A stretch of DNA of 64,000 nt from Mesostigma viride (Eukaryota; Streptophyta; Mesostigmatophyceae; Mesostigmatales; Mesostigmataceae): NCBI GenBank assembly GCA_009746045.1, contig RPFO01000097.1, forward strand, positions 779,646-843,645. The letters run 5' to 3'. The notes under the pieces are model-generated. The model made no database searches and was not told where the DNA came from. It saw only the letters and a list, made by a program, of their open reading frames with translations. The position numbers and the translations under genes are program-made. Below, in pieces: positions 30,750 to 55,610 of this stretch. Position 1 is the stretch's first letter, and each line of letters starts with the position of its first letter.

Positions 30750-32240
30750 GGGCAGGCACATCCCCACACTTGCTACTGCCAGTGTGAACTCCACTGAGCG
30801 GGGGGGAACTCCTCAGCCAGCAACCACACCCACCACGGCACTTGCACCGCTAGAGCACGGTGCAGGCCCACGTAGTGGTCCACCGACTTGAACTGGCGCC
30901 AACGCCCTCGCTTCTGGATGTCTGGGAGTGAAACGCCCTGCAGGTAGTCGTACGTTGCCCCACCATGTCACATGGAGTAGGGCGGAAACATCCCCCGCAG
31001 GCCCAGAACATCCCACGCCGCGTGCCACCGACGAGAGAACTGGCTGTAGTTGAGGCTCCCAAACAAGGGCTCCTCGGGCTCCCGCCCAGCGCACAGGCGC
31101 TCGAGCACGTACAGCGAGAGGGGATCCTGCACCACCACCGCCTGTGCACCCCCCTTGGCTGTCTTGGGATCCCGCAGAAGAAGCGCGCCCAGTCCCCGCT
31201 GCCCCAGGCGACGGTCGCCACGCAGTGCCACGTCCCCCACTCGGAGCTTGAAGGCCTCCCCGATGCGCAGGTATTGCTGGAAAGTGATGACGCACATGGC
31301 TGCTGCCATGGGCGCCCCCTGCCAGCGGAGGAGCTGCACCACCAGGTAGAGCAGCTCCCACGGCACCGGATTGGGGCTATGCGTTTGCACGCGTCGCTGC
31401 CACCCGTACAGGAGCCGGCGGGCCTCGCGCCACCCCTGCACTTGGCTGGGGTAGTACAGTTGCAGCCCACACAGCGCCCTCATGCACATGGAACGCCCTG
31501 CTCCCCCTCCATCCTCGTAGACAGACACGAGCCACTCGCAGAACACGCTCTCCGCTTCCTCCGGCGGTACAGCACCATAGGGCTCAGCCCACAGGAGGTA
31601 CGCGATCACTGCGCGATGGTAGCTGCGCAGGGTCGCGGGCAGCACGGTGCTCTCCAGCAGTTCCTGCCGCCCTCCCGGCCCCGGGTTACTCTCCACATCG
31701 CCATCGGCGGTAAGGTCCCGCACCCACCGGCCCCGGCGGCTGGGCGCGTCAGCGGGGTTTCGCTCCGAGCGGATGTACACCCAGTGGTACCTGGTGTTGC
31801 TGGCACAGCCCAGGGCGGCAGCGCGGCGGCACCACGTGTTGAGGCGGTAAGATGATGACCGCCCCTTCACCACTGCGCCCACAACGGCGGTGTTATCCAC
31901 CAGCCATACGTGCCGTCGCCCCCACCGCGCCCGCGTGCGCAGCCCCCACTCCAGGCTCTGCACGGCTGCGCGCGCCTCTTTCTCATTGATGTGCGCCCCC
32001 GCGTCCCTCCACCGGTGTTTCACCGCCACACGCCAGCGGGCGGTCGCCACCGCCCGATGTTCCCTCTCCCCCGTTCGCTCCACACCGACCTCTTCCGACC
32101 CGACACACAGAGTCTTCCACCCCTTCATTTCGCGGCAGTTGGACAAAGCTTTCACGTCTGCCTCTGCCAGACGGGCGTACACCACACCGGAGCCCCGGCT
32201 CGACGCGTCACTGGCCACGACGGTGGTGTCCAGTGGCTGG
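30750..32240 (-). pseudogene. DIRS-A RNase H and tyrosine recombinase, nonsense at catalytic Arg
   Basis: The 416-codon frame 30968-32218 has RNase H residues (VVASDASSRGSG, EKEARAAVQSLEWG, WLVDNTAVVG, NPADAPSR), then the 2A motif, then the recombinase with YLRIGEAFKLRVGDV. It stops at TGA (30968-30970, minus) just after PPYSM, exactly where DIRS-B has the catalytic Arg (YSMRHGG). The same frame goes on after the stop with HGGATYDYLQG, KRGRWRQF and VDHYVGLHRAL (Tyr nucleophile). A single CGA to TGA change explains the break. The 5' side is cut by the + strand DIRS-A copy. Confidence 0.88.
31676..31699 (-). other. 2A-type ribosome-skipping motif (DIRS-A)
   Basis: Encodes DVESNPGP, preceded by RDLTADG, between the RNase H end (NPADAPSR) and the recombinase start (GRQELLESTV). 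This fits the 2A consensus D-x-E-x-N-P-G-P. Separation would occur between the last Gly and Pro. Confidence 0.85.
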
Positions 32241-32713
32241 TTGATCTTACGATCTGGATTCCCTGATTTGCGACTAAAGGGAGCGGAGTGCGAGTCGGTG
32301 CCGCTGCCTCATGGCTGATCTGCGAGAAATGCTCATGGAAAGGGTGAAAGTCCCTGCAAATGACCTCTGGACTGCTTCCAAGTACTTGGATGTAGTTCAA
32401 AGTACTTCATTGGTACTACAGGGTAGTACAATCTACTTCAAACTAGTTCAAACTAGCTCAGGCTAGTAAAGATTCGTGCAGGTGTAGCACAACCTGCCTA
32501 GGAGGTGGTATGACCACCTGGGTTGAAGTAGACAGTGACTAAACGTAGTACAATGTCGAAAGAATCAGTACAAATGGGTTCTTTGTAGTACAACTGTTCA
32601 GTGGCACCTGGGCGCCGCGCCAGTACTGTACCGGACTTGCATCCGTCACCGTGCGCATGCAATGCAGCCAATTTATTGAGGAAGACATGGCGGCGCATGC
32701 TTTATCAGTTTTC
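32241..32713 (+). repeat. DIRS-A A1 repeat (inner copy)
   Basis: Starts TTGATCTTACGATCTGG and ends at CAGTTTTC. It contains a cluster of short TAGTAC/GAACTAG motifs (about 32395-32470) and an inverted repeat AGGTGGT-ATG-ACCACCT (about 32501-32517). The same unit occurs on the minus strand at 29807-30280, 37700-38183 and 39945-40422. Confidence 0.85.
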
Positions 32714-36282: not shown

Positions 36283-37505
36283 CGCTGCGCATGCACCAGG
36301 GGAGCCAGGCAGACAGCCGCCCAGAGCTCCCGGCGCACACTTGCCCAGAGTTGGAAGCGTCCTCCCTTGCGGAGGGCCAGCACTTGGTGGAGCATCCTGT
36401 AGGCGTGGAACCAGGTGCTTAGCAGACTCCTGCGCAGCAGCTGGATCCATACCCAGCGTGCCAGTAGGGAGGCCAACTCATGGTAGCTTGCACGTCCCCG
36501 GGCCAGCACCGCCTCGGTGTCGTGGACCAGGAGGGCCAGTCGCTTCGCCGACGGCCACAAGCTCCCATCTTGGTGGAACTCGATGCCCAGGATCTCAACA
36601 GCTTGACCTTCCCGCGCCCGCTCGACCTTTTTCTCATTCACCACCAGGCCAGCTGGCGCGTAGCACTCGGTGCATGCGCGGTCCAGCAGCGCGTTCGCCT
36701 CCGCTGCGCTGCGCGCGTGTGTGGTGCCCAGGTCGTCGATCATGACCAACTGCGCCGGCCGAGGAGGGTCCTCGGGCAGCAGCTGCCAGTCAAGTTCGGA
36801 GGCCCCCACCAACTCCATCCACTCCCGTCCTCCCTCACGCACTGTGCGCACCCCGAGCTGATGCATCGGGACGCTCACACTCAGCCCGGGGTTCAGCTTC
36901 CCCGGCCCGAACAGGGTCTGCATGTGCGCCACCTGCGCAAGCAGGACCGAGTGAGACCACCCCATCACCAGAACACGGAACCTGGGATAGAGCCGGCGGC
37001 GCTCCCCGGGCTGGCCGACCTCGTCCGACCAGACTGGGGGCAGCGCGAACCACTCCCGCCACTCCGTTGGCACGGAGAAGCGGTAGTAGTACGTCTCCAG
37101 GTCCGTTTTGCTCGAGTAGCTGGGCGCGCCCCCTGCCAATGATCTCGGCCACCGCCCCCACATCTGGCAGGTAACAGCCGCCAGGGGTGAGGAACTTGTC
37201 GTTGCTGTGCACCATGTTGCAGATGAGTCGCTGGCGCTGGGCTGACGGGTCCACCACCCCTGGATCGCCCTTGGGCACGCCGAACAGGCCGTTGGTGACC
37301 GGGGGCTCCTCCTCGCTGTACTCTGTCATCCCGGTCTCCGCCAGCCGCACGCTCAGGCGCGCGTACTCTGTGTTGCTCGCACAGCCATGCGTCACTCGCC
37401 GTCGACGCCCTGGCTCAACCCTACCTCCTCCCTCAAAATTTTTTTTATGTTGCCATAGACCTCCCTCCACTGGGGGGGGAGGCAGTCCATCAGCGGCACG
37501 CTGCC
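36283..37505 (-). pseudogene. DIRS-A outer copy, reverse transcriptase middle and C-terminus
   Basis: Minus-strand RT with NGLFGVPKGDPGVVDPS, DLETYYYRFSVP, LVMIDDLG (Asp pair), LGIEFHQDG and a Trp/Leu-rich tail up to PLVHAQR, where the inner + copy interrupts it. A frame change near 37135 (GGAPSY block) and another near the LPPVWSDEV block separate the pieces. On the other side it is cut at 37505 by the solo A-B unit. Confidence 0.83.
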
Positions 37506-38183
37506 TCCTCTGTGCATGCTTTCAGGTTCACTTTGTTTGAGAAGGCACCAGAACTTGTTTATTGCAAAATTATATGCTTAAGCCGCTTGCAGGCCTTGGT
37601 AGACCGAGAGACTGGCAAATTGTGCGCAAGTCCCAGGCGGCTGCCACCATATAACACCCCCAGAGACAACAAACGAACAAACAAACAAAAGAGGGTGGGT
37701 GGGTGGGCAAAACTGATAAAGCATGCGCCGCCATGTCTTCCTCAATAAATTGGCTGCATTGCATGCGCACGGTGACGGATGCAAGTCCGGTACAGTACCG
37801 GCGCGGCGCCCAGGTGCCACTGAACAGTTGTACTACAAAGAACCCATTTGTACTGATTCTTTCGACATTGTACTACGTTTCGTCACCGTCTACTTCAACC
37901 CAGGTGGTCATACCACCTCCTAGGCAGGTTGTGCTACACCTGAACGAATCTTTACTAGCCTGAGCTAGTTTGAACTAGTTTGAAGTAGATTGTACTACCC
38001 TGTAGTACCAATGAAGTACTTTGAACTACATCCAAGTACTTGGAAGCAGTCCAGAGGTCATTTGCAGGGACTTTCACCCTTTCCATGAGCATTTCTCGCA
38101 GATCAGCCATGAGGCAGCGGCACCGACTCGCACTCCGCTCCCCTTAGTCGCAAATCAGGGAATCCAGATCGTAAGATCAACCA
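37506..38183 (-). repeat. Solo A-B terminal unit of DIRS-A
   Basis: A complete A repeat, spacer (CCACCC/TTTG) and B repeat without any coding region, inserted in the outer DIRS-A pol (GCTGCC|CGCCACTCC restores the intact sequence). It begins TGGTTGATCTTACG and ends CATGCACAGAGGA on the minus strand. No target-site duplication. It is the DIRS counterpart of a solo LTR. Confidence 0.85.
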
Positions 38184-38640
38184 CGCCACTCCGCCCGCGG
38201 GCAGCGCAAGTCTCTCTGGGACAATCATTTCATATTGCCCGTCGGGCCCATAGGGCCCTGACTCAACGTCATGCACCAGGTCCTCTGCCGCTACGGCTCT
38301 CAGCCGGCGCTCATGGACCTGGGCGGCAATCTCCAGCCCTTGTAGGGCCGCCTGCTGGGCAGCGGTGCAGGGAGCCGTTGCCGTCGCCCCGCTAGTGCCT
38401 TGCCCTGGGGACCCGCCGGCAGGCGTGGCCATTGCTGGCCCCGCCCCACACCCGGCAGCCCCCACAGGCGGTTCCCGTGTCCCCCCCCACATCCAGTTCA
38501 GGCCTTCCACGAGCCGGACCATGAGCAGCAAGCCTGCCCGCCGCCGCGTGGCTCGCTGCAGCCTGCGTCGTGAGCGCAGGCGGGACCGGTCGAGGGGCTG
38601 GACGGCCGGAACTGGGAGCGGGAACACGCCGCGCCCCCTC
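38184..38640 (-). pseudogene. DIRS-A outer copy, pol N-terminal region
   Basis: Minus-strand text from LDRSRLRSRRRLQRA through MATPAGG, AAQQAALQGLEIAAQVHERRL and YGPDGQYEMIVPERLALPAGGV, ending at the solo A-B unit. It overlaps or directly follows the Gag stop at 38639 in another phase. It is the linker before the RT fingers; no catalytic motif. Confidence 0.75.
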
Positions 38641-39796
38641 ACTTCTGCTTGTTGCTGGCGGAGGAGGAGGCCACCGCCCCCCCATCCACCTTGGCCAGCA
38701 CCGCCGCGCTGACCCGCGCGTCGTGCTCCTTCTTGGCGGCCTTGAGAGCCCGTCGCGCCGCCCTCGTCCGCTGGCTGCCGCTCTCCACCACCGGCAGCAC
38801 GAAGGCGGCCTGGGCGACCCACGCGCCCTGGCCCCGCTCGCTCTCCACCACCATGAGTGACTCCACGATGCGTGCAAAGTACTCCATGCACGCGAGCTCG
38901 GTCACCGCCGTGACTCCCAGCTCCTTCACCGCCACGTCCAGGGCGTGGCACAGGTTGACCGCGATGTCCATGCGCTCGCGACTCTGCCACCCGCTGGTCT
39001 GGCCTGGCCCACGGATGAACATGGGCTTCAGGCCCTCCAGCCGGGCCCGCAGACTGCCCCCGTACCGGTCCTTGGCCGTTTGCAGGTACTCGGGCAGCAC
39101 CCGCAGCTTGTACCGGTAGTCCTCCACCTCCCAAGGGATGCTGGTGGCAGTCCCCGGCAGGGCGACCCCCTTGGTCATGGGCACAGCCAACACCTGGCCG
39201 CTCGCTGGGTCGGCGCGACCCGGTAGGCGGTCCCTGCGGCGCCGGCTGCTGCTGCGCCGGCCCGAGTCGCTGCTGCTGTCGCTGCTGCTGCTGCCGCTGC
39301 TGCTGCTGCTGCTGCTGCTGCTGCAACGGCACGTGCGATGGCGGCACTTGGGACACTTGGCCGTCTTGGCTCTCGCCGGTGCTGGGGCCACTGGTTTGGC
39401 GCCGGGTAGGATTGTCCCACCCCCCAGCGCCCCTTGCTGGGCCGCTGGGTGTGAGCTGTGCAAGGGATACCCCTCTGCAGGCTCCTCGTCCCCCGCCACG
39501 GACGCGGGGGCCGTCACCCATCCCCCCTGGCCGCCCCGGGGCTCTTCCCCAGTGCCTGGGCCTCCAGCCCCCGGCCACCCGGCTCCCCAGTACCCCGGGG
39601 GGGGAGCAGGCACCAAGTAACCGCCCCCTCGCACTGCTCCTTCCCCTGCGCCACTGCTGTACCCCCATGGAGGGGCTACCCCCGTGGCGTGCGGGCCACC
39701 AGCCCACAGTGGGGCTATCCCGGGGTGGGTTTGAGGGGTGTGCCCACCCGGCACTCGCAGTGCAGGGCCCAATGGGGGGTGCCCTCCGCCCTGCAA
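38639..39796 (-). CDS. DIRS-A Gag, C-terminal 385 residues (outer copy)
   Basis: The least damaged DIRS-A Gag half: one uninterrupted frame from the Gly/Pro-rich middle (GGHPPLGPALRVPGGHTPQT) through CPKCRHRTCRC, a Ser run (CTG repeat 39285-39323), a SDSSSDSGRRSSSRRRRDR segment and the helical C-terminal domain to SSSASNKQK. The N-terminal half is missing; the sequence jumps into a truncated B repeat at 39796/39797. Role: nucleocapsid/capsid protein of the retrotransposon, by position and composition. Confidence 0.75.
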   Translation of the reverse strand: MQGGGHPPLGPALRVPGGHTPQTHPGIAPLWAGGPHATGVAPPWGYSSGAGEGAVRGGGYLVPAPPPGYWGAGWPGAGGPGTGEEPRGGQGGWVTAPASVAGDEEPAEGYPLHSSHPAAQQGALGGGTILPGAKPVAPAPARAKTAKCPKCRHRTCRCSSSSSSSSSGSSSSDSSSDSGRRSSSRRRRDRLPGRADPASGQVLAVPMTKGVALPGTATSIPWEVEDYRYKLRVLPEYLQTAKDRYGGSLRARLEGLKPMFIRGPGQTSGWQSRERMDIAVNLCHALDVAVKELGVTAVTELACMEYFARIVESLMVVESERGQGAWVAQAAFVLPVVESGSQRTRAARRALKAAKKEHDARVSAAVLAKVDGGAVASSSASNKQK

Positions 39797-40422
39797 ATTA
39801 TATGCTTAAGCCGCTTGCAGGCCTTGGTAGACCGAGAGACTGGCAAATTGTGCGCAAGTCCCAGGCGGCTGCCACCATATAACACCCCCAGAGACAACAA
39901 ACAAACAAACAAACAAACAAACAAAAGAGGGTGGGTGGGTGGAGAAAACTGATAAAGCATGCGCCGCCATGTCTTCCTCAATAAATTGGCTGCATGGCAT
40001 GCGCACGGTGACGGATGCAAGTCCGGTACAGTACTGGCGCGGCGCCCAGGTGCCACTGAACAGTTGTACTACAAAGAACCCATTTGTACTGATTCTTTCG
40101 ACATTGTACTACGTTTAGTCACCGTCTACTTCAACCCAGGTGGTCATACCACCTCCTAGGCAGGTTGTGCTACACCTGAACGAATCTTTACTAGCCTGAG
40201 CTAGTTTGAACTAGTTTGAAGTAGATTGTACTACCCTGTAGTACCAATGAAGTACTTTGAACTACATCATCCAAGTACTTGGAAGCAGTCCAGAGGTCAT
40301 TTGCAGGGACTTTCACCCTTTCCAGGAGCATTTCTCGCAGATCAGCCATGAGGCAGCGGCACCGACTCGCACTCCGCTCCCCTTAGTCGCAAATCAGGGA
40401 ATCCAGATCGTAAGATCAACCA
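39797..40422 (-). repeat. DIRS-A A repeat with truncated B at the 5' end of the outer copy
   Basis: On the minus strand: A (40422 to about 39945), spacer, then B only as far as CTTAAGCATATAATTT, where it joins the middle of Gag. The right edge (CAACCA|TTTCTG) borders Copia-2 RT. It probably arose by recombination or deletion between a repeat unit and Gag. Confidence 0.75.
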
Positions 40423-40941
40423 TTTCTGCTTATTCTGAAGGGCCTGGAAGGACTCAGGTCGAGCCCTATCATCTGGAGACTCACGCTGCAGTAAGCTGTG
40501 ATCAGTGAGTGTGGCTTGAGAGTGTCTTCAGTTGATCCCTGTTTGTTGCTGGCCCAATGGGAGGGTCTGCCAGTGTATGCTAGTTTGCATGGAGATGATC
40601 TGCATTTGCTAGCCCCCACAACCTGGCTGAAGAAATGTATTCCTGTCATCAGTGGCAAGTTTTCACTGGGCAAGGAGCTGTGGCAGGAACCCAACAACAA
40701 GCCTGTAGTGTTCTGTGGAATGCAGGCTACCCTGTTCAAGAGGGATGGGGAGTGGAGTATCAGGCTTCAGGCTGGAGGAGATTATAAGCAGACCATTGTG
40801 AAGGCCTTGCCAGAGAAGATCACCCAGGCTGCAGGTCCTGAGTTGAGAGGCATGTGGGCCTGGTTTGCCAGCATCTGTGGTCCGTCTTTGATGGTCCATT
40901 GCAGAATGCCTGATGATGTGCTTGAGGATGAGAAGCCTGGA
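40423..40941 (+). pseudogene. Copia-2 reverse transcriptase, piece 3 (catalytic part)
   Basis: Reads FLLILKGLEGLRSSPIIWRL, then a TAA, then ECGLRVSSVDPCLLLAQ...YASLHGDDLHLLAP and FSLGKELW...KPVVFCGMQATL, matching Copia-1 (GVEGLQSAPRIF, DDIDPCFFVV, FVWHGDDQLIAGP, FEIGKQVEL). The catalytic pair sits in H-G-D-D, not the usual Y-V-D-D. It ends at EDEKPG where DIRS-B enters. Confidence 0.85.
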
Positions 40942-41450
40942 TGATTGATCTTACGATCGGGATTCCCTGATTTTGCCTGGGGGAGCGGAGGGATGGAGGT
41001 GCGCCGCTACCTTGGAGGCGCTACACCGTTGCCCAGTGGTGCAAGTCGACATGCGGGAGCTAAACGGGGTGGCCACGCCCTCTCTGGAGGGTCTGACAGC
41101 CTTGGATGGGCCTCAGATGTAGTTCGAACTAGTTCAAAGTTAGTACAGGTAGTACAAACTAGTTCAAACGAGTTCAATCTACTTCAACTAGTATCCAGGG
41201 ACCCTCAAGATATGCCAGGTGGTTGCTGAACGGTTCTGGCATGACAGAACATGTGTGACATCATAAAAATGTAGTACAATGTTGAAAAAAGTAGTATCAG
41301 GGTCCTAGATCTAGTACAGTAGTATTCTGAGGTCATTCTTACATGGAGCGCCGCGCCAGCGGGGCGCCGCACTTGCGTGTGTCACGGATGCAACGTTGAT
41401 GCGATGTATTTCAAGGTGGTGATGGCTGCCAAGCCAGCTTATCAGTTTTC
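40942..41450 (+). repeat. DIRS-B A1 repeat
   Basis: 509 bp, essentially identical to A2 (46570-47078). It starts TGATTGATCTTACGATCGGG and ends CAGTTTTC. It contains a cluster of GAACTAG/AGTAC motifs at about 41118-41204 and should hold the promoter. Confidence 0.9.
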
Positions 41451-41691
41451 AACACAACTAGAGCAATACTTCACCGTTTTTGACAAAGTTGGTGTCAAAC
41501 TAATCGTGAGACAATAGCCGACATCATTTTGACGGTTTTCGCACCAAGTTTTGACGGGTTTGCGCAACGGGAGTAAAAGTCCGCAAGGTAGAACTGAGTG
41601 ACAAATTTTCAGTCCGAAATTTTTCTCAGTCTCCAAGATTGCGGAATATTGAGCCTAGTTGTGAGAAATTTCTTCATCTTTGAATTCTATA

Positions 41692-42402
41692 ATGGCTAGT
41701 GATCACGAAGACACCACCCTTGAGGCAGTAGACCGAGATTTCTTATTAAATGTGAAAAAATCGTATTTTCAGGGGGGCAAGGAGTTGTTAACGACTTTGA
41801 AGTTCTTGACTGAGTATCTCGGTCCAAACTGGGCCCAAAGGCTTACTACTATGTCTGAGGGTCGTTTGACATCCTTGGGACAGTTTCTCAAGACTGCAGG
41901 GCTCCAGATTAGTGAGGGGTCAAGTGATTCCGACATGGGTTCCATGTTGTGCAAGGCCATTACTCTAGAGATGAAGAAGCCCCCAGTGGCCACTGGGGGC
42001 AAGGGGAAGACTGGTCCAGCCAGGGGCGAAAGGACCCGAAAGGATCCTCCCAGCAACGGCACCGACGAGGAAGAGGAGGACGCGACGAGCTCTGAGGATT
42101 TTTTGGACGCGCGCGAGCAGCTGGCCCCTGCTGCTGCTCGCGCCAAGGGAAAGAAGTCTCAGGGCAGGAACCGAAAGCTGGCAGAGAATGCTGCCCTTCT
42201 GGCGGGCGTCCGCGAGCTCATCGGAGCGGAGTTGCAAGCCCTGGCGCGGGGGAAGAGGAGGGACGCGAGGAAAGGGAAGAGCCAGCGCGAGGACAAGGGG
42301 GGCAAGGGCCATCCGAAGAGCAAGCGCCAGGAGAAGAGACGCGCGCGGCGCGGGAGCAGCCCAGGCTCGACAGACACCAGCAGTGGGAGCGACGAGAGTC
42401 GC

Positions 42403-42456
<54 letters not shown>

Positions 42457-43197
42457 TCCGACAGCGAGAGCAGAGGCCGTGGCAGGGGCAGGGGTGGCGC
42501 TCGGTCGCGCCGCGACAAGTCCCGGGAGCGACGTGGGCATGGCAGGGGCCGTTCTGCGGAGCCCAAGGGGCGTCGGGATCGCTCCCGCGAGCGTCGCAAG
42601 GAGCGGCAGCGGTCCAGCAGCCGGAGCACGAGTCGGGACTCCTCCCAGCGGAGCTCGCGTCGATCGCGGGAGCGTGTGAGGGAGAGAGACCTGCGCCGAA
42701 CCACCAAGGGGGTGCGTCTCCCCCGGCGAGCTTTCAAAGTGGCCTGGCGCCTGTTGGTCAAGGACCGCGACGACAGGGTGCTGCCGCTGCAGGTGCTGGA
42801 TGCGCGCCAGGTCGCGCACGGGAGCCTGCAGGCCCGCTTGGCCCTTCGCAAGGAGCAGGAGGGCGTTGGGGCTGCACCGGGAGCCCCCCGCGGGTGGAAG
42901 AACAGCACGCACCATCTGGTGTGCAACAACCTGACCTACATTCTGGATGTGGCCATCCAAGAGCTGGGGGAGGATGTGGTGACGGAGCTGGCCTGCTTCG
43001 AGTACCTGGCGCGTGTGGTCGAGGCGTTCCTCATGGTGGAGAAGACCAGCGGCTGGAACAACGGGGCGATGCACCTGCTGCCACTGGTGGAGGGCAGTAC
43101 TATTGGAAGCGCAGCAGCCCGGGCAGCGCGGAAGGCGGCTCGCCAGGAGGCGGAGCTGGCATCGGCGGCGGCGGCGGCGGCCAAAAAGGACAAGTGA
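41692..43197 (+). CDS. DIRS-B Gag with RS-rich domain (501 aa)
   Basis: Intact frame from ATG 41692 (first ATG in phase) to TGA 43195-43197. The N-terminal helical region is followed by an acidic patch (DEEEEDATSSEDF), basic KR tracts, a run of about 15 Ser (AGC repeat 42405-42450), then an Arg/Ser domain with repeated SRERR, RSRER and RSSSRSTSRDSSQRSSRRSR. The C-terminal globular part (ELGEDVVTELACFEYLARVVEAFLMVE) is homologous to DIRS-A. RS domains are known from splicing factors; here one probably binds RNA or host SR proteins. pol follows immediately. Confidence 0.88.
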
Positions 43198-46100
43198 GGG
43201 GCAGGGGTGTGCTCCCGCTGCCAGTGAAGATGGTCCCCCGCTCGACCGCAGCCGCCTGCGATCCAACCGCAGGCTGCAGCGCGCTCTGCGTGCCAGAGCA
43301 AGGCTGCGGTGTCAAGAGCGGGCCACAAGGGGCCTGAACTGGCTGTGGGGCAGGACCCGGGAACGGTCCGGTGGACCGGCGGTGCAGCAGCAGGCTATTA
43401 CTGCGAGCCCCTGCACCGTCGCCCAAAGGGCCGCCCTACAAGGGATGGAGGATGCTGCCCGCGTCTACAACCGCCGGCTTACCGCCGTAGCGGAGGCGAC
43501 AGACACGGGGGACGCAGAGCCCGCGCCATACGGGCCGGGCGGTCAATACGAAATTATTGACCCGGAGAGGCTGGCACTGCCAAAAGGAGGAGCTGCAGGT
43601 AGTGTCAAGCTGCTGGACTGCCTGCCGGAGGCATGGCAGAGGACGTATGAGGACATAAACAACATTCTACAAAGATGCGACGCGGAGGCGGGGGCGTGGA
43701 TGCGGCGGGGCCGGGTGTCTCATGGTTGTGCAAGCGATGCGGCGTACGCACGACTGAGCATCAGGCTGGCGGAGACGCGGATGATCGAGTACAGTGAGGA
43801 GGCGCCCCTGTGGTGAACGGCTGTTTTGCCGTCCCCAAGAAAGACCCCGGGGTTGTGGAGCCCAGCGAACGACGGCAGCGGTTTATAGGGAATATGGTGC
43901 CGTGCAACCGGCGCTTCCTCAAGCCGCCTACCTGTTACCTGCCTAACTTGGGCGAGGTCGCTGAGCTGAGTGTGGGGGCGCCATGCTATTCGGGCAAGAC
44001 AGACCTTGACACCTACTATTACCGGTTCGAGGTACCTGAGAGCTGGCGCCCCTATTTCTCGCTGCCCCCCGTGTGGTCCGATGAGGTCGGCCAGCTGGGA
44101 CGACGGCGAAAGTTGTACCCCAGGTTCCGGGTCCTTGTCATGGGCTGGAGCCACTCGGTGGTCCTTGCACAGGTTGCCCACCTGCACTGTCTCTACGGGG
44201 CGGGGTGCTCGATGCCAAGAGAGGGCTGTCATATCCCATGCACTTGATGGGGGTGCGCACAGTGCGCGGGGATGGCATGGACCGGCTGGAGTTGGTGGAG
44301 AGCGCAGCCAGTGCAGCGTGGCGGCTGCTGCCGGAGGATCCCCCACATCCCGCTCAGCTGGTCATGATCGATGATCTGGGGGTCACCCATGGGCGGAGCG
44401 CGGAGGAGACCAACGCCGTGCTCACCAAGGCGTGCGAGGAGAGCTACGGTCCCAAGGGGTTGGTGGTCAACGAGAAGAAGGTGGAGAGAGCTGAGGAGGG
44501 GCGCCCGGTGGAAATCTTGGGGATTGAGTTCTGCCAGGACGGGTCCATGCGGCCGAGCGCGGCCCGGATGGCGGCCTTGGTGCGCGACACGCAGGCAATG
44601 CTGGGGCGTGGACGGGCCACTTACCACCAACTGGCCTCGTTGCTGGGACGGTGGGTGTGGGTCCACTTGCTGCGTCGGGGTCTACTGTCCATCTGGTTTC
44701 ACGCCTACCGCTTGCTGCAGCAAGTCCTGGTGCACAAGCGGGGCTGGAGCTATCGGCTGTGGGGTAGTGTAAGGGAAGAGCTCCAGGCTGCAATGGACTT
44801 GGCCCCGCTGGTGCATGCGCAGCGCGACCAGCCCCTGAGCTGCACCGTGGTGGCCACTGATGCGTCAACCCACGGTTCTGGGGTGGTGTACAGCCGGTGG
44901 GAGGCGCCTGCGGTGCGTGGCCTGTCCAACTGTCGGGAGCGGAAGGGCTGGAAGACGCTCTGTGTGGACTCTGAGACGGCCAGCGTGGAGCGCACAGGGG
45001 AGATTGAGCACCGAGCCATGGCAGCGGCGCAGTGGCGCACCGCTCTTGCCCACCGGTGGCTCGATCCCTCGGCCCACATCAACGAGAAGGAGATTCGTGC
45101 GGCTGTGCAAGGGATCGAGTGGGGCCTGCGCTCACAGGTTCACTGGCAGCAACGTCACGTGCGGCTGGTGGACAATTCGGCAGTTGTCGGTGCGCTCGTC
45201 AAAGGGCGTTCGTCGTCCTACCGGCTGAACGCCTGGTGCCGCCGGGCGATCGCGCTAGGGCTGGCCAGCAACACCCGCTACCACTGGGTGTATGTGAGGT
45301 CGGAGCGCAACCCGGCCGACGCGCCCAGTCGTGGTCGATGGGTGCGCAACCTCACTGCGGATGGCGACGTGGAGAGCAATCCGGGGCCACATGGGCGGCA
45401 GGAATTGCTGGAGGCCACTGTGCAGCCCAGCACGCTAGCTGCATATCACCGAGCGCTGAGGGCGTACGTGGAGTATGGTCAACCCCTCGCTCCCGTGGCC
45501 AAGACGGAGGCGGAAGGCGTCTTTTGTGAGTGGCTGGTCAGCGTGTATGAGGAAGGGGGAAGCCGGACCATGGTTGTGCGCGCATTATGCGGGCTGCAGC
45601 TGTACTTCCCCAACGAGATTAAGGGGTGGTACGAGGCGCGTCGCTTGCTGGCCGGCTGGGCGCGACGAGTTCCCGTGCAGAGCCCTCACCCCGTCCCGTG
45701 GCAGCTACTGTACCTCGTGGCAAACATTCTTCGTGCACAAGGCTCGATATTAGCTGCCTGCTGCTGCATCATTGTTTTTCAGCAATACTTGCGCATCGGA
45801 GAAGCGTTCAAGCTTCGCGTGGGGGACGTGGCTCTGCGCGGGGACTTCCGCCTGGGGCCCAGTAACCAGGGTGCGCTGCTGCTACGCGACCCCAAGACAG
45901 CCAAGGGCCAGGCCCAGGCAGTGGTGGTTGTTGAGCCCCTTTCACTCACGTTGCTTGGCGCCCTGTGTGCTGGGCGGGCGCACGAGGAGCTGCTCTTTGG
46001 CGCACTCAGCTACAGCCGTTTCTTGCGGCGGTGGCACGCCGCCTGGGACCTCCTTGGCTTGCGGGGGATGTTTTCACCCTACAGCATGCGCCACGGGGGG

Positions 46101-46289
46101 GCCACCCATGACTACCTGCGCGGGGTACCAATCGCGGACATCCAAAAGCGTGGCCGGTGGCGCCAGTTTTCGTCCGTGGACCATTACGTGGGGCTCCACC
46201 GCGCCCTGCAGGTGCGGGTGCCCCAGGTGGTGTGGGACCTCGCGGGCAGACTGCCCCCCCGTGACTGGCGTCGTCACTTTGGGCCATAG
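43198..46289 (+). pseudogene. DIRS-B pol: reverse transcriptase, RNase H, 2A motif, tyrosine recombinase
   Basis: The N-terminal linker and RT start lie in phase with 43198-43816, RT fingers in another phase (43810-44247), and the rest in one long frame (44205-46289, 694 codons). Indels near 43808 and 44200 separate them. Motifs: VPKKDPGVVEPS, GWSHSVVLAQ, LVMIDDLG (Asp codons 44370-44375), LGIEFCQDG; RNase H VVATDAS, INEKEIRAAVQ, LVDNSAVVG, NPADAPSR; 2A motif 45366-45389; recombinase YLRIGEAFKLRVGDV, PYSMRHGGATHDYL (Arg codon 46089-46091), KRGRW, VDHYVG (Tyr codon 46185-46187). The recombinase joins and resolves circular cDNA. Only the two frame breaks seem to inactivate it. Confidence 0.9.
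45366..45389 (+). other. 2A-type ribosome-skipping motif (DIRS-B)
   Basis: Encodes DVESNPGP (full local text RNLTADGDVESNPGP) between RNase H (NPADAPSRGRWV) and recombinase (HGRQELLEATVQPSTL). It sits at the same place as in DIRS-A, although the flanking residues differ. Confidence 0.88.
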
Positions 46290-46305
46290 ATTTCGGCCAT
46301 ACTTC

Positions 46306-46343
46306 GGTGAGGCGCACTCTAGCGGACACGCTAGGGCTTCACC
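46306..46343 (+). other. DIRS-B 3' hairpin
   Basis: Seventeen bases after the pol stop: outer stem GGTGA/TCACC, GGC/GCT pairs, GCAC bulge, inner stem CTAGCG/CGCTAG, loop GACA. One copy, against three in DIRS-A. Confidence 0.8.
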
Positions 46344-46423
46344 AGCTGGAGGGTAAGGATGTGCCCTCCCATGGCTCCTGACGCGGTTTCCAGATGTACG
46401 GCCTGCGGCCAGGTTGGAGATGC

Positions 46424-46569
46424 GGGTCAAGTGGAAGCGGCGGCCAGGGACTGCAAAAAAATATTTTATGTCTCTCTGTCTACTAAGTCCGGTCGGCTTC
46501 AACATATAGTGTAATAAACAAGTTCTGGTGCCCTTCAACCAGAAGTGGACCTAGGCAATGCACAGTGGA
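46424..46569 (+). repeat. DIRS-B B1 repeat
   Basis: 146 bp from GGGTCAAGTGGAAGCGG to CACAGTGGA. It contains AATAAACAAG (polyadenylation signal, about 46512-46521). Its twin is B2, split at GGAAG by Copia-1. Confidence 0.88.
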
Positions 46570-47126
46570 TGATTGATCTTACGATCGGGATTCCCTGATT
46601 TTGCCTGGGGGAGCGGAGGGATGGAGGTGCGCCGCTACCTTGGAGGCGCTACACCGTTGCCCAGTGGTGCAAGTCGACATGCGGGAGCTAAACGGGGTGG
46701 CCACGCCCTCTCTGGAGGGTCTGACAGCCTTGGATGGGCCTCAGATGTAGTTCGAACTAGTTCAAAGTTAGTACAGGTAGTACAAACTAGTTCAAACGAG
46801 TTCAATCTACTTCAACTAGTATCCAGGGACCCTCAAGATATGCCAGGTGGTTGCTGAACGGTTCTGGCATGACAGAACATGTGTGACATCATAAAAATGT
46901 AGTACAATGTTGAAAAAAGTAGTATCAGGGTCCTAGATCTAGTACAGTAGTATTCTGAGGTCATTCTTACATGGAGCGCCGCGCCAGCGGGGCGCCGCAC
47001 TTGCGTGTGTCACGGATGCAACGTTGATGCGATGTATTTCAAGGTGGTGATGGCTGCCAAGCCAGCTTATCAGTTTTCCCCACCCACCCACCCTTTTCTG
47101 TTTTGTCTTGGGGGGTCAAGTGGAAG
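46570..47126 (+). repeat. DIRS-B A2 repeat, spacer and first 14 bp of B2
   Basis: 46570-47078 repeats A1. 47079-47112 is a CCCACC/TTTTGTC spacer like that of DIRS-A. 47113-47126 (GGGTCAAGTGGAAG) opens B2 and ends in the Copia-1 target. Confidence 0.9.
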
Positions 47127-47581
47127 AGTTAGATGAGATGCTTAGGCTGACACACGGATTTCCGGCCTGCGCGCCGCGTATTGCCTACCGCGGCTGAGCG
47201 GGACACCTCAGTACAGTACGGCAGGGTGTACGGTACTGAGGTGTCATGTGGACCGATGTGCGGTTAGTGCCAGACTGTGCCTAGACTCTAGCTCGACCCG
47301 CCAGACCCGGGTTATCCGGTTCTGGACGGGCCGAGTGTAGTTGATGCTAGTGACGTGGTCGCATGGCATTGCAGTGTACAGTTGTCCACTGGTCGTGTGC
47401 TGCAGGTAGCACCGCCATAGGCATATAGGCGTAGCACTGGGGAGTGCCGCAGCACCCGAGTTTGCCCAGACGTTCCATTCTGAGCCCTCAGCTTCCATTG
47501 CTCTCTCATTGTATTATTGTAATACAATCATCATTCGCTTCAGCTTCGCAGTTGTTCGTCGTCCCTAGTCTCCATCCAACT
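47127..47581 (+). repeat. Copia-1 5' LTR
   Basis: 455 bp. It contains a 13-bp-stem hairpin (47202-47245, GACACCTCAGTAC and its complement) and a small hairpin TTGTATTA-TTG-TAATACAA (47509-47527). The following TGGACTGAAAAG should be the primer-binding site, but I do not recognise the tRNA. Confidence 0.9.
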
Positions 47582-47626
47582 TGGACTGAAAAGTTCGATA
47601 TTTTTTTTACAAGCAAAAAAATATAT

Positions 47627-50286
47627 ATGGCTTCCAACAACGGCAACAACAACAAGGGGAAGGCGCCTGCCAGGCGCACCTCACCCCGACTTTCGCCGGA
47701 GGGCACGCCCTCCACCAACGATGCGAGGGTGACGCCCAACGTCACCTTCCGCACGGTGGTCGCTGACCACCCAGGCGTCGGGGCCCGCAGGTGGGGCCCG
47801 GCGCCCGGGGGATGGCGAGCGGTCGGCCGTTTGCCACTGGCGGTTCGTCCGCCATGGCACCTGGGGGGCAGGTCCCCCGGGCACGTAATTCCCCCGTCGC
47901 AGGTGACGGGGGTCGTGAGCGGAGTGATTCCTCTGAGGAGGATGGGAGGTGCAGCCTGCGAGGTCACGGCCTTCGCTCGAGATTTCGTCACAGACGCCTG
48001 CGACGTCTGGTAACCTTTCCGTGGGCCGACAGATGGCCATCATGGACATTGACCGGTATGGGGCACATGTTCCGCCCCCGGTCGCGTTCGGGCGCCCACC
48101 CCATTTTCTCCCCATTGGGGAGGACGACATCCCCGCGTTCATTTCGATGAACGGCCGGATCCTACGTCAACGTTTTCAAATGCTTCCAGATGAGGAGATG
48201 CACGCGATAGAGGTTCATCGGGTGCAAACGCAGGTCGAGGGGCGGTTGAGGATGCAGTTCTCCCTGGTTCAGGTGGCAGTTTGGCTGTACTGTTTCGCCA
48301 ATCGGCCGAGGCACAATCCCGGCACTGTTGATCAGTGGGCGTCCAGGCAGCGCCAGAGAGAGGCGCTGAGCGTGGTCGCCCGACAGGAGATCACGCTGAC
48401 TCCGTTGGGGCCGTGGCCCCAAGTCACGCCAGTTGGCTGGGGCCCGGATAGGCGTGAGGCGGCTGCGATGCCGCCTGCGACGGAGCGCGGGGCGGCAGAC
48501 GCCCCCAACACGCCCATGGGTGGTGAAGCCACCCAGGACCCTCTGGCAGGTCAGAGGGTCCAACCTCAGCCGCAGGCTCCCCCGCCCAGCGTGGGGGGCC
48601 AGGTGGCTGAGGAGGCCACCGGGGTCGCAGGGACCCCGGCGGCGACACAAGCGCCCGGGGTCGCAGGGACCCCGGCAGCGACGCCGGCGCCTCCGGCGCT
48701 GGCGGGGGATGCAGCCCCCATGGAGGGTGTCACGGGCACCTCCAGCGGCTCTGGGGGGCAGGCCCCCTCTAGCCGCAACAAGGACAAGGCCCTGGCAGGG
48801 CCGGAGGGGCCTCAGGGTCCCACCGCAGCTGGGCAGCAACCAGCACTGCTGGAGGGCGACCTGGAAGGTCGCGACTTCATCACCCTGGGTGATGAGGCCG
48901 TGTGGCGTGCCATACAGACAGCCACAGCCTCCTTCCGTGGGCTGGCCGACAGGAGCCAGCAGATGCACGTCGCGGAGGCGGGCAGCCTGGTGTGTGCAAT
49001 CATCACGCACATCCTGGGCCTGCCCAACCTCCAAGCGGGCACACGCAGGGTGTGCGACGACCTGCTGCCTGCCCTGCAGGCTCTCCTCTCAGGGAGGAGG
49101 GTGCAGGGCAGCAGGGTGCGTCTGGTGCGTTTGCTGGAGCTCCTGCACAACGCCATCCTGAGAGGGGCGGGTAGGTGGCTGCCTACCTGGCTGCATCATG
49201 ATCTTACTAACCCTACTGACGATGAAGTGTCCCTCTCTCCCACCTTCCATGATTGGGAGGAGGCCCGCAGCAGGAGGCGGGAAGTGACACACACTCACAC
49301 CCCCACCCAGCCCACCCCTATGTTGTCTAACCCTCCTACACAGCCCATGTTTGCCCATCCTGCTCAGCTCACTCAAGTAGCACTTCCCTCTCAGCATGTC
49401 TCTCCTGTGAATGCTGCAGCAGCAACACCATCTTCTCCCTCTCCCCCTGCATCCCCCTCTAGGTTGCCCACTTACAATGAAAACCGTCCTGTGGATAGGA
49501 TTAATGTCAGGGGGCTGCCTGAGGGGTATACTAGGGAGCAGGGGAATCATGCACTTCTCTCTCTTCAGCTGGCTAGGGAGGAACTGAATGTCAAGAATTG
49601 GTTTGGATCTCTCATGCAGGGGGATTTCTACCATCAGTCCTCTTCTCAGATTCAGAATCTCATTCTTGTCTTCCAGCGTAGGTATCCCAAGTGGCAGGAC
49701 ACGCAGGCTAGGGCAGTTTGGGAGGCTTTCATGAAGGAGCTAACTGACCTCCTCTCCACCCCCTCATCTGTGGACATATATGGGGCATTCAGGTGGGTAG
49801 AGGAATACAGGGTCACATCAGTGGACTATGTGGCTGAGACAAAGAAATATGAGCTAGCCATCAAAGCACGTCCTGATGTCCAGCAGCTAGATCACAAGTT
49901 CTTGCTGCGTTCTTCCTTGAGAAACTCAAACTTGACAAAAACACCTACGCTATGCTTGCCACAGGAATGGCAAAGTACTGGGAGGACATGAAGGAGGCAT
50001 TGGATTATATCAAGCTGGCCTTGGCTCCCCTTAGCCAGGGGGCCATGGGCACCTCTGTAAAGAGGGTCAGGGGGGAAGAGAGGGAGGAGGAGGATAGGGA
50101 GAGGGAAGACAGGAGCAAGAGACCTGTCACTATGGCAGAAGTCAAGTCCCTGCTGGGACAAATGTTTAAGGGCAAGGGCAAGGGCAAGGGCAAGGGCAAG
50201 GGCAGGGGCTGGGGCAAGGGCAAGGGTAAGGGGCAGTCTCCCTCCAAGGGGGGCAGCTCCAGCAACAACAACAACAACACAACAGC

Positions 50287-50354
<68 letters not shown>

Positions 50355-50400
50355 GAAGCAGGACAAGGAGGACAAGTCTTCTCAGCGGTGCACCCGCTGT
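47627..50400 (+). pseudogene. Copia-1 Gag with CCHC zinc knuckles, frameshifted
   Basis: ATG 47627, 45 bp after the LTR. The Asn/Lys/Pro-rich start changes phase near 47790 and 47945, then a 680-codon frame runs 47949-49991 with a long Ala/Pro/Gln middle. Near 49925 it shifts again to YAMLATGMAKYWEDMKEALD, an acidic/Arg stretch and Gly-Lys repeats (GGCAAG, 50169-50230). The AAC microsatellite (50262-50353) makes the last change of phase before RCTRCGMKYHLRPTC, a C-x2-C-x4-H-x4-C knuckle at 50389-50430. A second CHKCHGPPHGDPKDC follows. Gag binds RNA and forms the particle. Confidence 0.8.
50262..50353. repeat. AAC trinucleotide microsatellite in Copia-1 Gag
   Basis: About thirty AAC units. 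They encode Asn in the phase that leads to the zinc knuckle and Thr in the phase coming from upstream, so the present copy is out of phase across the run. Confidence 0.95.
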
Positions 50401-50403
50401 GGC

Positions 50404-51625
50404 ATGAAGTACCACCTGCGGCCCACCTGCCGCAAGAACGTGGACGAGCTGGGGCATTTGGACGTCCTGTGCCACAAGTGCCACGGGCCGCCCCACGGTG
50501 ACCCCAAGGACTGCAAGCGGCCTCCTTACGGCAAGAAGTGTGAGTCTCCCTCTCATGCTGGCTTGAGTGTGCCTGCTTCACCTCTTTCATCTGCATGCCC
50601 CACTGTCAGAGCAGTGAGCAGTTCTGGAAAGGTGCTACAGCTGGTTTCAGAAGATTATGTCTCTAAACCAACCTTCACATCTATGGTTCCCAAGGTGTGC
50701 AGAGTGTCCCCAGCAGAGGATGCTCAGATCAGTTTTCAGGAGCTTGCTTTGCAGTTGCATTTCCTTTATGGGCATGAAGTGAGTGCAGAGGTGGTGGCAG
50801 CAGCAATAGGGGGGGCAGCACTCAGACGTGCATGCCAGGTGGTCAGATCCCACTGCCAGCATTGTCAGTTCAATGCACCCAAACCCCCTAAGTGGCATGT
50901 AGCTACCCCACCTAAGAGCAAGGGCAGGGTGGTAGGAGATGTCTTTCATATCAAAGGACAATCTTACTTGGCACTTAAAGATGCATGGTCAAGGTACACA
51001 ACCATTGAACCATTACCTGGAATGGACAAGACACAGTTGCTCAGGGCTCTCTTGATTGCTCAGGCCAGGTACTACCCTGTGGAGGCATTGTTACTGGATC
51101 AGCAGTTCACGTGTCTTGCCAATGAACCAGGGTGTGAGGCTATTGATCTGGCTGGGCTAGAAGATCATGAGAGGCAAGGCATTATTGAAAGGGCCATCAG
51201 GTCCATTAAAACCCTTGTAGCCAAAGAAGATGGCAATCTGCTGGCTGACAGTGGGTCATATGCTGACAGAGCTCTGTGGTCCACCAGGTTGTGCCAAGTC
51301 CTCAACAGGAGGCCACTCATGAAAACCCCACAAGGGGTGGTCATTACACCAGATGGATTGCATGCAGGCATTTATCCACCTGAGGTACTAGCCCTACAAC
51401 GCACAGCGAGCACAGACAGCTAGCAGGTTAGCTGTCAAGGATGCAAAGCATCCACGTCCCACCTTCAGAGAAGGGGATCAGGTCCTATTCTACAAGGAGT
51501 CGGGACTAGGCAAGGTGGGTACCTGGCATGGGCCAGCCACCATCCTAAAGTTTAACACCACTGGCAGGACAGTGTTAGTTAAACACAATGACACGGGAAA
51601 ATTCACAGGTGTTCACCTCACAGGA
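50404..51625 (+). pseudogene. Copia-1 integrase
   Basis: In one frame with the zinc knuckle, without any protease between. Zinc-binding LHFLYGH...CQVVRSHCQHCQ, core D in VVGDVFHIKG, D in LLLDQQF, E in GIIERAIRSIK, then LNRRPLMKTPQG. The frame stops at 51421-51423. The C-terminal part (HPRPTFREGDQVLFYKESGL, GTWHGPATI) continues in another phase to about 51625, so one frameshift is present near 51410. The catalytic triad is intact. Confidence 0.87.
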
Positions 51626-51884
51626 TGAAATTGTATTTTCCAACTGTGTCAGACGTGGCAGAGGAGGAAGAGCTGTTGGCCGACAGCCCTGTACAGTTGC
51701 CTGGCATCCCAGCGTTGCCCAGTGAGTGGTTGTTTGGAACACCCACTGGTGAGTGTGAGAGCCACACCCACTGTGACACCCAGGTCACCCTTGATGATTG
51801 CAGGCAGTCACTGCAGGCTTGGCCCCCTGCAGCAGAGGGTCACATTGGCAAAACAGGTGATCAGCAACCTATCACCTCTCAAGT

Positions 51885-52420
51885 GTGAACATAGCTCAGC
51901 CACTAGCTGCACCTTCCAAACGCAGCCTAGCAGACGCTGTTCGCATTTTACAAGCAGCTCATAGAGCCAAAGCTCAAACTGCTGCAGGATCAGCTAAGGT
52001 GGGGAAGGTTGGGCAGAATGACAATAGCCCATTTATGGTTGCAGTGGACACACAAGCCCAGGTCAGCATTATCAGTGCCCTGGCTGTGCCCCATTGCCTT
52101 TGGAACCTTCACCCTGGCACCATGTGGCTGATTTCTCAGGGCAGTCATCCCTCAAGGTATTAGGTCAGGTCATGTTGACTATACTCGGTATCCCCACTCC
52201 TTTTCAGGTATTGGAAGGTTATAAAGGGAATGCTTTGTTGGGGGATCCTTTTCTCTGTTACCCTGGTGTCCTCATCTCCAGTGATAGACTATCCATCCAG
52301 GACATGGGTGGTGTTGATCTGAATCATTTCAAAATTTCTCTTGAAAAACTTCTTAACACCAACATTGCTTCTGTAAAATTTGCTACACCCAAGTATGCCC
52401 CAGGGCAAGAACCCTGTGTG
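51885..52420 (+). pseudogene. Copia-1 retropepsin-like protease, located after integrase
   Basis: Frame 51885-52163 contains FMVAVDTQAQVSII (Asp codon 52047-52049). A frameshift around 52100-52130 leads to DFSGQSSLKVLGQVMLTILG and NALLGDPFL. These blocks match DTNAQVSV, DFSGRTHLRVLGEV and VILGQNFLG of Copia-2. The active site has Gln where retropepsins have Gly. A linker lies between integrase and protease (51626-51884). Confidence 0.75.
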
Positions 52421-52439
52421 GCAGACTTGGTTCACAACC

Positions 52440-54041
52440 AAAAACTTCATCCCAACTCATTTGGATTGGGCAAGCATGATGTGGCTAAAATGTCTCCTCT
52501 TTCTTATGAACAGATAGAGCAAGACTGTCGCACACACATAGGATTCCTAAAATGGGTGGAGGCCTTTAACAAGGCCAGGGAAGAATGGGTAGTGCCAGAT
52601 CCTCTTAGTCCTTCTCATACTCCCCTGTCACACCTATTGACAAAAAGCCTGCAGGGTGCAAGCACTTGCGCCTGAAGTTTGTGTGTAAACATAAGCCAGC
52701 AGCAGATGGGTCAGTCATTTTCATGCTAGACCTTGTGTGACAGAGTTCAAGGGCACCACTGATCTGACAGAGGCAGAGTTGTACACGCCAGGCATTCAGC
52801 AAACATCCCTAAAAATCTTGCTGTCTGTCTTTGTGGGTCATCTCAATGATGGGGATGACTATGTATGTAAGGCTACAGACATTAAAAGGGCTTTCCTGAA
52901 AGGCTCACCTGAGATAGCACAACAAGTGTGGCATGGTCAGGTGTATGTAGTCTCCACTCCCAGAGTTTGGGCAAAACACATCCCTCAGCAGTACCTGAAA
53001 GCTAACATAGGTGTTGAAGGGCTGCAATCAGCTCCTCGCATTTTCAGGATGTCAGCTCAGGCTGTGTTTGAAAAGCTAGGGGCTAGATATGATGACATAG
53101 ACCCTTGCTTCTTTGTGGTCCCACACCCTCATGGCATTCTCACCTTTGTGTGGCATGGGGATGATCAGCTGATTGCTGGGCCAAGGCGTGCTGTGGATGA
53201 TTTTATTCAACAAGTGTCACAGCATTTTGAGATTGGCAAGCAAGTAGAGCTGGGCACCACTGCCATAAAATTTTGTGGCACAATGTTACAACTCCAGCAG
53301 CATCAAAACCAGTGGGTGTGTGCACTCTACTCTCCCAATGATTACATGCACAGCTGCTTGGAGGTTTTGCAAACAAAAATCAAACCTGGAGCCTGTCCTA
53401 CCATTAGAGGCAAGCTGGGGTGGTTGTGCTCAACGTGTGCACCTCACCTGGCTGTGGTTAGCAGAGTTGATGATGATGTCTTGATGCAAGTAGGTCACAA
53501 AGCCATCACCAAAACTCTCCAGGAAGGCCCTCCCCTTATCTTGCACTCCTTGGATCTCCACAAAACCATTCACATCCAAGCTATGATGGATAGTTCCATG
53601 GAGTCCAGGCAGATTACCAAGTTGCAGGCAAGGGAGTCAGGCTTGTATTTTGTGCAGAATGATGATGCACCCTTGTCTCTCATTTCATGGTACAGCCGGT
53701 TGCATAGACGCAAGGCTGTCAGCAGCAATGCTGCTGAGTGCAGGGCAGTGGTGTCAGCAGTGCTTCATGCCAGGTACTTGAATCATGTGCTGGTTTGGTT
53801 GCAGATGCAAGCAGGCAGCAATGCTGGGGTGGTGGCACACTTGCTCACTGACAGTCAGTCAGTCCTCAGTTTCCTTGCTAACCCCTATGCTGTCCACACT
53901 GATCTTGACTGGGTGGTCCTGAAACAGGAGTCCACCTACTGGGAGTCCACCCGTCACGTGGAGGACAAACACAACGCTGCTGATGCACTCACTAAAGTGC
54001 CTCAGCAGGCAGCTGACAATACCAGCTGTTGTACCACTTGA
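52440..54041 (+). pseudogene. Copia-1 reverse transcriptase and RNase H
   Basis: The RT start (PLSYEQIEQDCRTHIGFLKWVEAF) is followed by two or more frame breaks (52620-52740); the 434-codon frame 52737-54041 then carries LYTPGIQQTSLKILLSVFVGH, DIKRAFLKGSPEIAQQVWHG, SAPRIFRM, catalytic FVWHGDDQLIAG, and RNase H with AMMDSS, AAECRAVVS, LLTDSQS and NAADALTKVP (D-E-D-D). The stop is at 54039-54041. The catalytic block is H-G-D-D, as in Copia-2. Confidence 0.9.
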
Positions 54042-55153: not shown

Positions 55154-55610
55154 AGTTAGATGAGATGCTTAGGCTGACACACGGATTTCCGGCCTGCGCG
55201 CCGCGTATTGCCTACCGCGGCTGAGCGGGACACCTCAGTACAGTACGGCAGGGTGTACGGTACTGAGGTGTCATGTGGACCGATGTGCGGTTAGTGCCAG
55301 ACTGTGCCTAGACTCTAGCTCGACCCGCCAGACCCGGGTTATCCGGTTCTGGACGGGCCGAGTGTAGTTGATGCTAGTGACGTGGTCGCATGGCATTGCA
55401 GTGTACAGTTGTCCACTGGTCGTGTGCTGCAGGTAGCACCGCCATAGGCATATAGGCGTAGCACTGGGGAGTGCCGCAGCACCCGAGTTTGCCCAGACGT
55501 TCCATTCTGAGCCCTCAGCTTCCATTGCTCTCTCATTGTATTATTGTAATACAATCATCATTCGCTTTCAGCTTCAGCAGTTGTTCGTCGTCCCTAGTCT
55601 CCATCCAACT
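55154..55610 (+). repeat. Copia-1 3' LTR
   Basis: 457 bp, differing from the 5' LTR by small indels near its end. It is followed by GGAAG, the target duplication, and the rest of DIRS-B B2. Confidence 0.92.

Follow-up and report, generated by a model that had tools for sequence, protein, structure and literature searches.

The window, meaning the whole 64,000-nucleotide stretch of Mesostigma viride DNA analyzed here, contains two copies of tyrosine recombinase (YR) retroelements, DIRS-B on the forward strand and a DIRS-A fragment on the reverse strand (Table 1). Both copies are damaged: the RT of DIRS-B is split across frames, and the DIRS-A piece is truncated. Uninterrupted pol frames are present elsewhere in the Mesostigma genome, for example one of 1102 aa, and many copies are near-identical.

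Table 1. Features of the DIRS-B and DIRS-A copies in the window (2A, StopGo/2A)
Feature	Position	Strand	Remark
DIRS-B, split direct repeat A1	40938..41450	+	513 bp, 100% identical to A2
DIRS-B, first ORF	41665..43197	+	510 aa between stops; Gag-like from its position alone
DIRS-B, RT N-terminal part	42983..43816	+	other frame than 44085-46289; by eye against P0003
DIRS-B, open frame with C-terminal RT part, RNase H, 2A and YR	44085..46289	+	734 aa plus stop
DIRS-B, RNase H C-terminal end NPADAPSR	45309..45332	+
DIRS-B, upstream WVRNLTADG	45339..45365	+	one mismatch (N for D) to viral motif 4, WV(R/K)DLTx[acidic]G
DIRS-B, StopGo/2A core DVESNPGP	45366..45389	+	predicted skip between G 45384-45386 and P 45387-45389
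DIRS-B, tyrosine recombinase after NPG/P	45390..46286	+	PF00589; YLRIGE, MRHGGATH and SVDHY boxes
DIRS-B, split direct repeat B1	46424..46569	+	copy B2 after A2 in L045, L046 and L047
DIRS-B, split direct repeat A2	46566..47078	+
DIRS-B, B2 remnant	47113..47126	+	first 14 bp; rest absent in the window copy
DIRS-A, frame fragment with RNase H, 2A and most of YR	30968..32308	-	446 aa
DIRS-A, StopGo/2A core DVESNPGP	31676..31699	-
DIRS-A, upstream WVRDLTADG	31700..31726	-	full motif 4 match

The best protein match to the frame 44085–46289 is jgi/Mesvir1, with 99% identity over 95%. In the DIRS-B pol, Pfam PF00589 matches residues 551–703 (45735–46193) with 29.9 bits against a cut-off of 27.1. The RT-RNase H part gives profile matches to P0017–P0020 with E values of 1.4e-119 or better, and P0017 carries PF00078; on the frame 44085–46289 itself, Pfam RT has no match. 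No Pfam match of any kind was obtained for the first ORF, and no methyltransferase match in pol or the first ORF. Additionally, Rfam at the gathering score has no matches in window positions 30000–48000, and neither A2 nor P0024 has a relative in IMG/VR searches. An AlphaFold model of the RNase H-2A-YR region of DIRS-B, built from 8 sequences, was discarded at a mean pLDDT of 43.7.

The earlier note had called these elements DIRS-like, a name that holds in the broad sense and fails in the strict one. With a YR, a DIRS-type RT and RNase H, and A1-B1-A2-B2 repeats, DIRS-B fits a YR retrotransposon of the DIRS order, broadly defined. According to the group definitions in the available text of PMC4157794, the strict DIRS group (PAT, Toc3, Kangaroo) has a methyltransferase (MT) domain, and DIRS-B, judged by Pfam, falls outside that group. 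It possesses the Ngaro structure, that is, split direct repeats, no MT match and internal repeats downstream of the YR. Owing to these repeats and the missing MT match, DIRS-B is closer to the structural definition of Ngaro and is described here, in a purely structural sense, as a YR retrotransposon of Ngaro-like structure. As far as the available parts of PMC4157794 and PMC8547959 describe them, Ngaro, PAT, Toc3 and Kangaroo elements share with DIRS-B the combination of RT-RNase H and YR and the A1-B1-A2-B2 repeats. However, the Ngaro elements in that part of PMC8547959 encode the YR as a separate ORF3, whereas the Mesostigma elements have one frame with the 2A in between.

Other retroelement remains, with Penelope-like RT and copia-like frames, were recognized by eye at window positions 10336–13020 and 50230–56314. 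At about 3796–4030, the translation contains a long HTIPY run, which implies a pentanucleotide repeat.

The pol border of DIRS-B reads NPADAPSR-GR-WVRNLTADG-DVESNPGP-HGRQELLE, passing from the end of RNase H through the 2A to the start of the YR. At the equivalent position, the translated minus-strand frame of DIRS-A reads WVRDLTADG-DVESNPGP-GGRQELLE. Both placements agree with what the earlier note had reported, and the right-hand DIRS-A copy beyond position 64000, to which it had also pointed, carries the motif as well (window-equivalent 64183). The DIRS-B core thus lies in frame between two separable proteins. Across all six frames of the window, the patterns NPGP, D.E.NPG and [DG].E.NP.P match the DIRS-A and DIRS-B cores and nothing else. 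Furthermore, the core, written as a degenerate DNA pattern, has 2 matches in the window, compared with a mean of 0.01 in shuffled sequence, where none of 100 shuffles reached 2.

Genome-wide, the core pattern with E at p14, GAYGTNGARNNNAAYCCNGGNCC, has 177 matches (reversed control, 0), and the corresponding H14 pattern has 326 (control, 1). Sorting of the first 100 of the 177 E14 places by hand via the core sequence assigned 34 to DIRS-A, 33 to DIRS-B, 21 to DIRS-D and 12 to others. Thirty loci were taken from the E14 matches; 24 are DIRS borders and six are non-DIRS, and this set, having been selected by the motif, is unable to show that the motif is always present.

Some of the first 100 E14 places also lie in blocks. 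At least 11 contigs (C1, C2, C335, C446, C1106, C1391, C1480, C1513, C1535, C1579 and C1591) have at least two DIRS-A/B sites each among the matches listed, and these sites form one block of about 12–113 kb per contig. Single DIRS-A/B sites occur in C106, C1077 and C1469 among the same matches; in a separate genome search, C1690 has two DIRS-B places approximately 0.9 Mb apart. In contrast to the DIRS-A/B blocks, the sites of DIRS-D (E14 matches) and DIRS-H (H14 matches) are dispersed. The blocks look like candidate centromeres.

A StopGo/2A sequence lies between RNase H and the YR in all five DIRS families reached (A, B, D, H and K); the genome searches scored the best candidates only, so the families number at least five, and they share one genome and are hence non-independent. 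In the motif-selected loci, the border is WVR[DN]LTADG-DVESNPGP in families A and B, with a DVERNPGP variant in L015, and WRRDLTSDG-DVEANPGP in family D. A protein search with family D scored 67 places; 13 belong to family D, and the other 54 are 60–64% identical. Six of these 54, representing DIRS-H, were read (L050–L055), and all six show W[VI]PDLTRCG-DVHPNPGP; a seventh stretch (L056) stops short of the border. Similarly, a search with P0019 gave 201 matches, of which seven borders were read (L058–L064). The DIRS-K border WVRDLTAE-GIHPNPGP is present in L058, L060, L062 and L064, a degenerate DIRS-K copy (L063) has GMHPNPGP with M at p13, and L059 has a type A border. The remaining DIRS-K copy, L061 (C998:4794850–4795350), is disrupted behind AGWV, precisely at the position of the 2A. 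Thus, NPGP occurs at 12 of the 13 borders that were located by protein search without using the motif, and the exception is the disrupted copy. Related proteins, perhaps from other hosts, carry DVEANPGP (P0002), DVESNPGP (P0003), DVERNPGP (P0004) and DVETNPGP (P0006).

Cores of the 2A type also occur outside these elements. Non-DIRS frames with DLT[KAR]DGDVE[SAP]NPGP were seen in L010, L018, L019, L031 and L032 (E), L017/L040 (F) and L043 (G). The E, F and G frames have in common a FIN[LIF]....R..WRA stretch upstream of the core. In L018/L019, E forms part of a 243-bp tandem repeat. Inspection of the adjacent frames by eye revealed no RT.

The Mesostigma borders were compared with the StopGo rules given in the available text of PMC12846837. 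The core rule there is (D/G/C/N)(V/I)ExNPGP, with H at p14 and N16H among the rare functional variants. Viral motif 4 is DLTxDG with D at p12 and S at p15, and viral motif 1 is (R/K)DLTxE with G at p12 and P at p15; the two share WV(R/K)DLTx[acidic]G with a one-residue offset, and both are almost 100% active in reticulocyte lysate. By these rules, DIRS-A combines a full motif 4 upstream part with the core, and DIRS-B and DIRS-D are near matches, with N for D in the upstream part of DIRS-B and R for V after W in DIRS-D. DIRS-K has the motif 1 upstream part together with G12 and P15, as reported for the viral class, plus H14. The DIRS-H core is an H14 variant, and its hexapeptide deviates by P and C. 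In other words, DVESNPGP, DVEANPGP, DVHPNPGP and GIHPNPGP (the last with G12 and H14 together) each correspond to a canonical core or to rare variants tested in that text. Since the viral sequences tested there differ from the Mesostigma ones, skipping activity of the Mesostigma 2As is expected by analogy.

Pol of many LTR elements is processed by a protease, and the border could likewise be a proteolytic site that is cut by a host or element protease. However, no protease family of Pfam matches the pol or the first ORF of DIRS-B, or P0003, a longer pol. Moreover, the border obeys the rules of a signal known to act during translation, including variants tested in that role in the available text of PMC12846837. 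Proteolytic cleavage is therefore considered very unlikely, and a StopGo/2A signal is preferred.

At the codon level, the eight core codons of DIRS-A and DIRS-B differ by four silent and no replacement changes; across the 692 aligned codons of their pol, pS is 0.64 and pN is 0.20. Of 684 eight-codon windows compared between the two, 61 are as conserved as the core, so the comparison supports a constraint on the protein without setting it above that on catalytic regions. The seven core codons of H1 and H2 differ by six silent and no replacement changes. Between DIRS-B and DIRS-D, the seven codons show only one silent change, so not every pair is informative. When families A, B and D are compared with H, the sole change at seven core positions is E to H at p14. 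The silent changes in A/B and H1/H2 speak against a nucleic-acid signal in place of a peptide, and this candidate was rejected. They also bear on the possibility that the motif is a functionless relic or a by-product of recent bursts, as might be suggested by the many near-identical copies and the two damaged copies in the window. Within A/B and H1/H2, silent changes occurred without replacements, and between families that are as little as 48% identical (K left out), the changes are confined to p14 (E/H) and the free p15. A relic is thus exceedingly improbable.

Among ten relatives in which no NPGP was seen by eye, four (P0017, P0018, P0019 and P0020) have an RT-RNase H frame that ends within two residues of the border. 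These frames end 1–2 residues past NPAD[AG]PSR, where the Mesostigma frame goes into the 2A; such ends may also reflect contig borders. The frames of P0009, P0010, P0013, P0022, P0016 and P0012 end 4, 38, 66, 87, 155 and 208 residues past RNase H, respectively; these six longer tails count against the StopGo reading. In the five Mesostigma-type proteins measured, the first Met lies 60–122 residues after NPGP, and in the dinoflagellate proteins described below, a Met is found within 20 residues past the motif in 10 of 116, compared with 38.8 expected. Separate initiation of the YR was rejected on these observations.

Under the StopGo reading, RT-RNase H and the YR of the Mesostigma elements would be translated from one frame. 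At the border, the ribosome would release RT-RNase H after NPG and resume at P, yielding a free recombinase of about 300 aa. The frame, the position, the conservation at the protein level, the variation within StopGo rules and the lack of a Met near the YR start form the observed basis, and on this sequence evidence, it is highly probable that StopGo at the border divides the product of this frame into RT-RNase H and a free YR. The earlier note's interpretation, that the two are made as separate proteins, is well supported by the upstream match to motif 4, the presence in all five families, the four relatives that end at this point and the two families that have other variants published in PMC12846837 (available text). 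We infer that ribosomes of the alga skip the peptide bond, that both resulting proteins are put to use and that selection keeps a free recombinase. If true, this explains how a YR that shares its frame with RT can act as a free recombinase without a protease.

Based on its available text, PMC12846837 describes StopGo as largely confined to viruses and finds no evidence for its natural use by plant viruses. Beyond viruses, the parts consulted of PMC11512398 (2024) and PMC4981915 (2016) report 2A in non-LTR retrotransposons (L1Tc and LINEs of sea urchin and other origin) and in NLR genes. The Mesostigma sequences resemble those of RNA viruses (FMDV 2A and classes 1 and 4 of PMC12846837, as given there) in the core, the hexapeptide class, the association of p12 and p15 with that upstream class, and His14. 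They are likewise placed between two enzyme modules of one frame; in contrast to the viral cases, they belong to an algal retrotransposon and mark its RNase H/recombinase border. With the non-LTR elements (L1Tc and LINEs, as far as described in those papers), they share a 2A within a retroelement frame, whereas here the 2A belongs to YR retrotransposons, and the product that follows it is the recombinase.

The earlier note knew of no description of 2A in DIRS-type elements, and none in DIRS-type or YR elements was found in the literature searched; the survey of cellular 2As by Rao et al. (2025), which possibly includes them, lies outside that scope. The terms '2A-like', '2A peptide' and 'NPGP' are absent from the main text of PMC12440569, PMC6681497, PMC8547959, PMC3537659 and PMC5890265, and 'retrotransposon' is absent from the available part of a 2021 review (PMC8623073). 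The finding thus seems to represent a known mechanism in an apparently new class of elements. StopGo would be an apparent route by which green-alga retrotransposons make the enzyme for their integration. The genome has hundreds of sites (177 + 326 pattern matches) that retain variants also known from viruses, a natural collection of StopGo variants within a single host.

A second motif emerged in proteins that are mostly dinoflagellate, as judged from the named ones (Symbiodinium, 'Skav'). A search with P0011 residues 760–1158 found 165 proteins, and 121 were examined, namely the 120 listed and P0014. Among these, 116 have exactly one [NH]PGP, always as GEAx[NH]PGP, in a search whose query includes the motif and may favor proteins that bear it. 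In the remaining five, GEA is intact and a single residue of NPGP differs. Of the 116 proteins, 102 have N and 14 have H at p16, p15 varies freely, and LDxxxCA[RK] is often found upstream. H at p16 agrees with the functional N16H variant, but with E at p13 and A occupying p14, the canonical rule of E14 (or H14) fails. In these 116 of 121, the [N/H]PGP ending with a free p15 lies directly before an independent domain, a Cre-like YR. About 320 residues follow the motif in most proteins (300–345 in 109 of 116). Homology to the Mesostigma YR begins a few residues past the motif (hhalign probability 99, E 7.7e-18). After a length filter, 109 of the 116 entered the hhalign alignment; 107 were used for invariant columns and 46 for a structure model. 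The single IMG/VR match of the dinoflagellate DNA pattern (L049) was dismissed as chance, with no RT or YR seen by eye in the frames listed.

The structure model of P0033, based on 46 sequences, has a mean pLDDT of 86.2 and a pTM of 0.49. It resembles Cre recombinase (2hoi; E 1.4e-5, TM by target 0.57) and has weak matches to DNMTs (E about 7e-3). The pLDDT falls below 50 at residues 1–4, 19–39 and 319–335, and the motif occupies residues 325–332. Additionally, the G, E, A, P, G and P of the motif account for 6 of the 17 invariant columns in the 107 motif-bearing proteins; the invariance of P-G-P follows from selection of the rows for [NH]PGP, whereas that of G-E-A does not. A motif that is predicted to be unfolded yet so conserved would fit a signal acting in the nascent chain.

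In Prorocentrum cordatum, the YR of P0021, a protein whose upstream part may be misannotated, is similar to the Mesostigma YR (BLASTP E 1e-16) and is directly preceded by KTHPGP, without the acidic residues of 2A. The placement of NPGP or HPGP at an equal position before homologous YRs in Mesostigma, dinoflagellates and this Prorocentrum protein would also be consistent with an old N-terminal motif of the recombinase clade, active in folding or DNA binding, with no skip and a working fusion. Against this, the conserved residues in Mesostigma lie upstream of NPGP as well as in it, they follow the StopGo grammar, and family K shows the one-residue offset. Furthermore, the dinoflagellate motif is placed in the only stretch past residue 39 with pLDDT below 50 (319–335), between confident domains. 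An old recombinase motif is unlikely in our view, and co-translational skipping remains the preferred reading.

GEAx[NH]PGP, which immediately precedes the YR in a linker predicted to be unfolded, is accordingly named here as a candidate for a new StopGo class; GEASNPGP, GEAKNPGP and GEAXNPGP have no occurrence among the matches listed in the literature searched. We regard the chances as even that StopGo freeing a recombinase is recurrent in YR retrotransposons of distant eukaryotes, with a new dinoflagellate class LDxxxCA[RK]xxxxR[IV]GEAx[NH]PGP that lacks the p14 E/H of the classes in the available text of PMC12846837. In the dinoflagellate proteins, a single frame encodes both a DNMT-like domain and the YR, which GEAx[NH]PGP precedes; in the longer ones, this frame also includes RT and RNase H. 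SymbioDIRS-Dnmt3 of Symbiodinium, as described in the part of PMC5890265 consulted, is likewise a dinoflagellate DIRS element with a DNMT-type domain in Pol; unlike the proteins here, it has its YR in a separate ORF.
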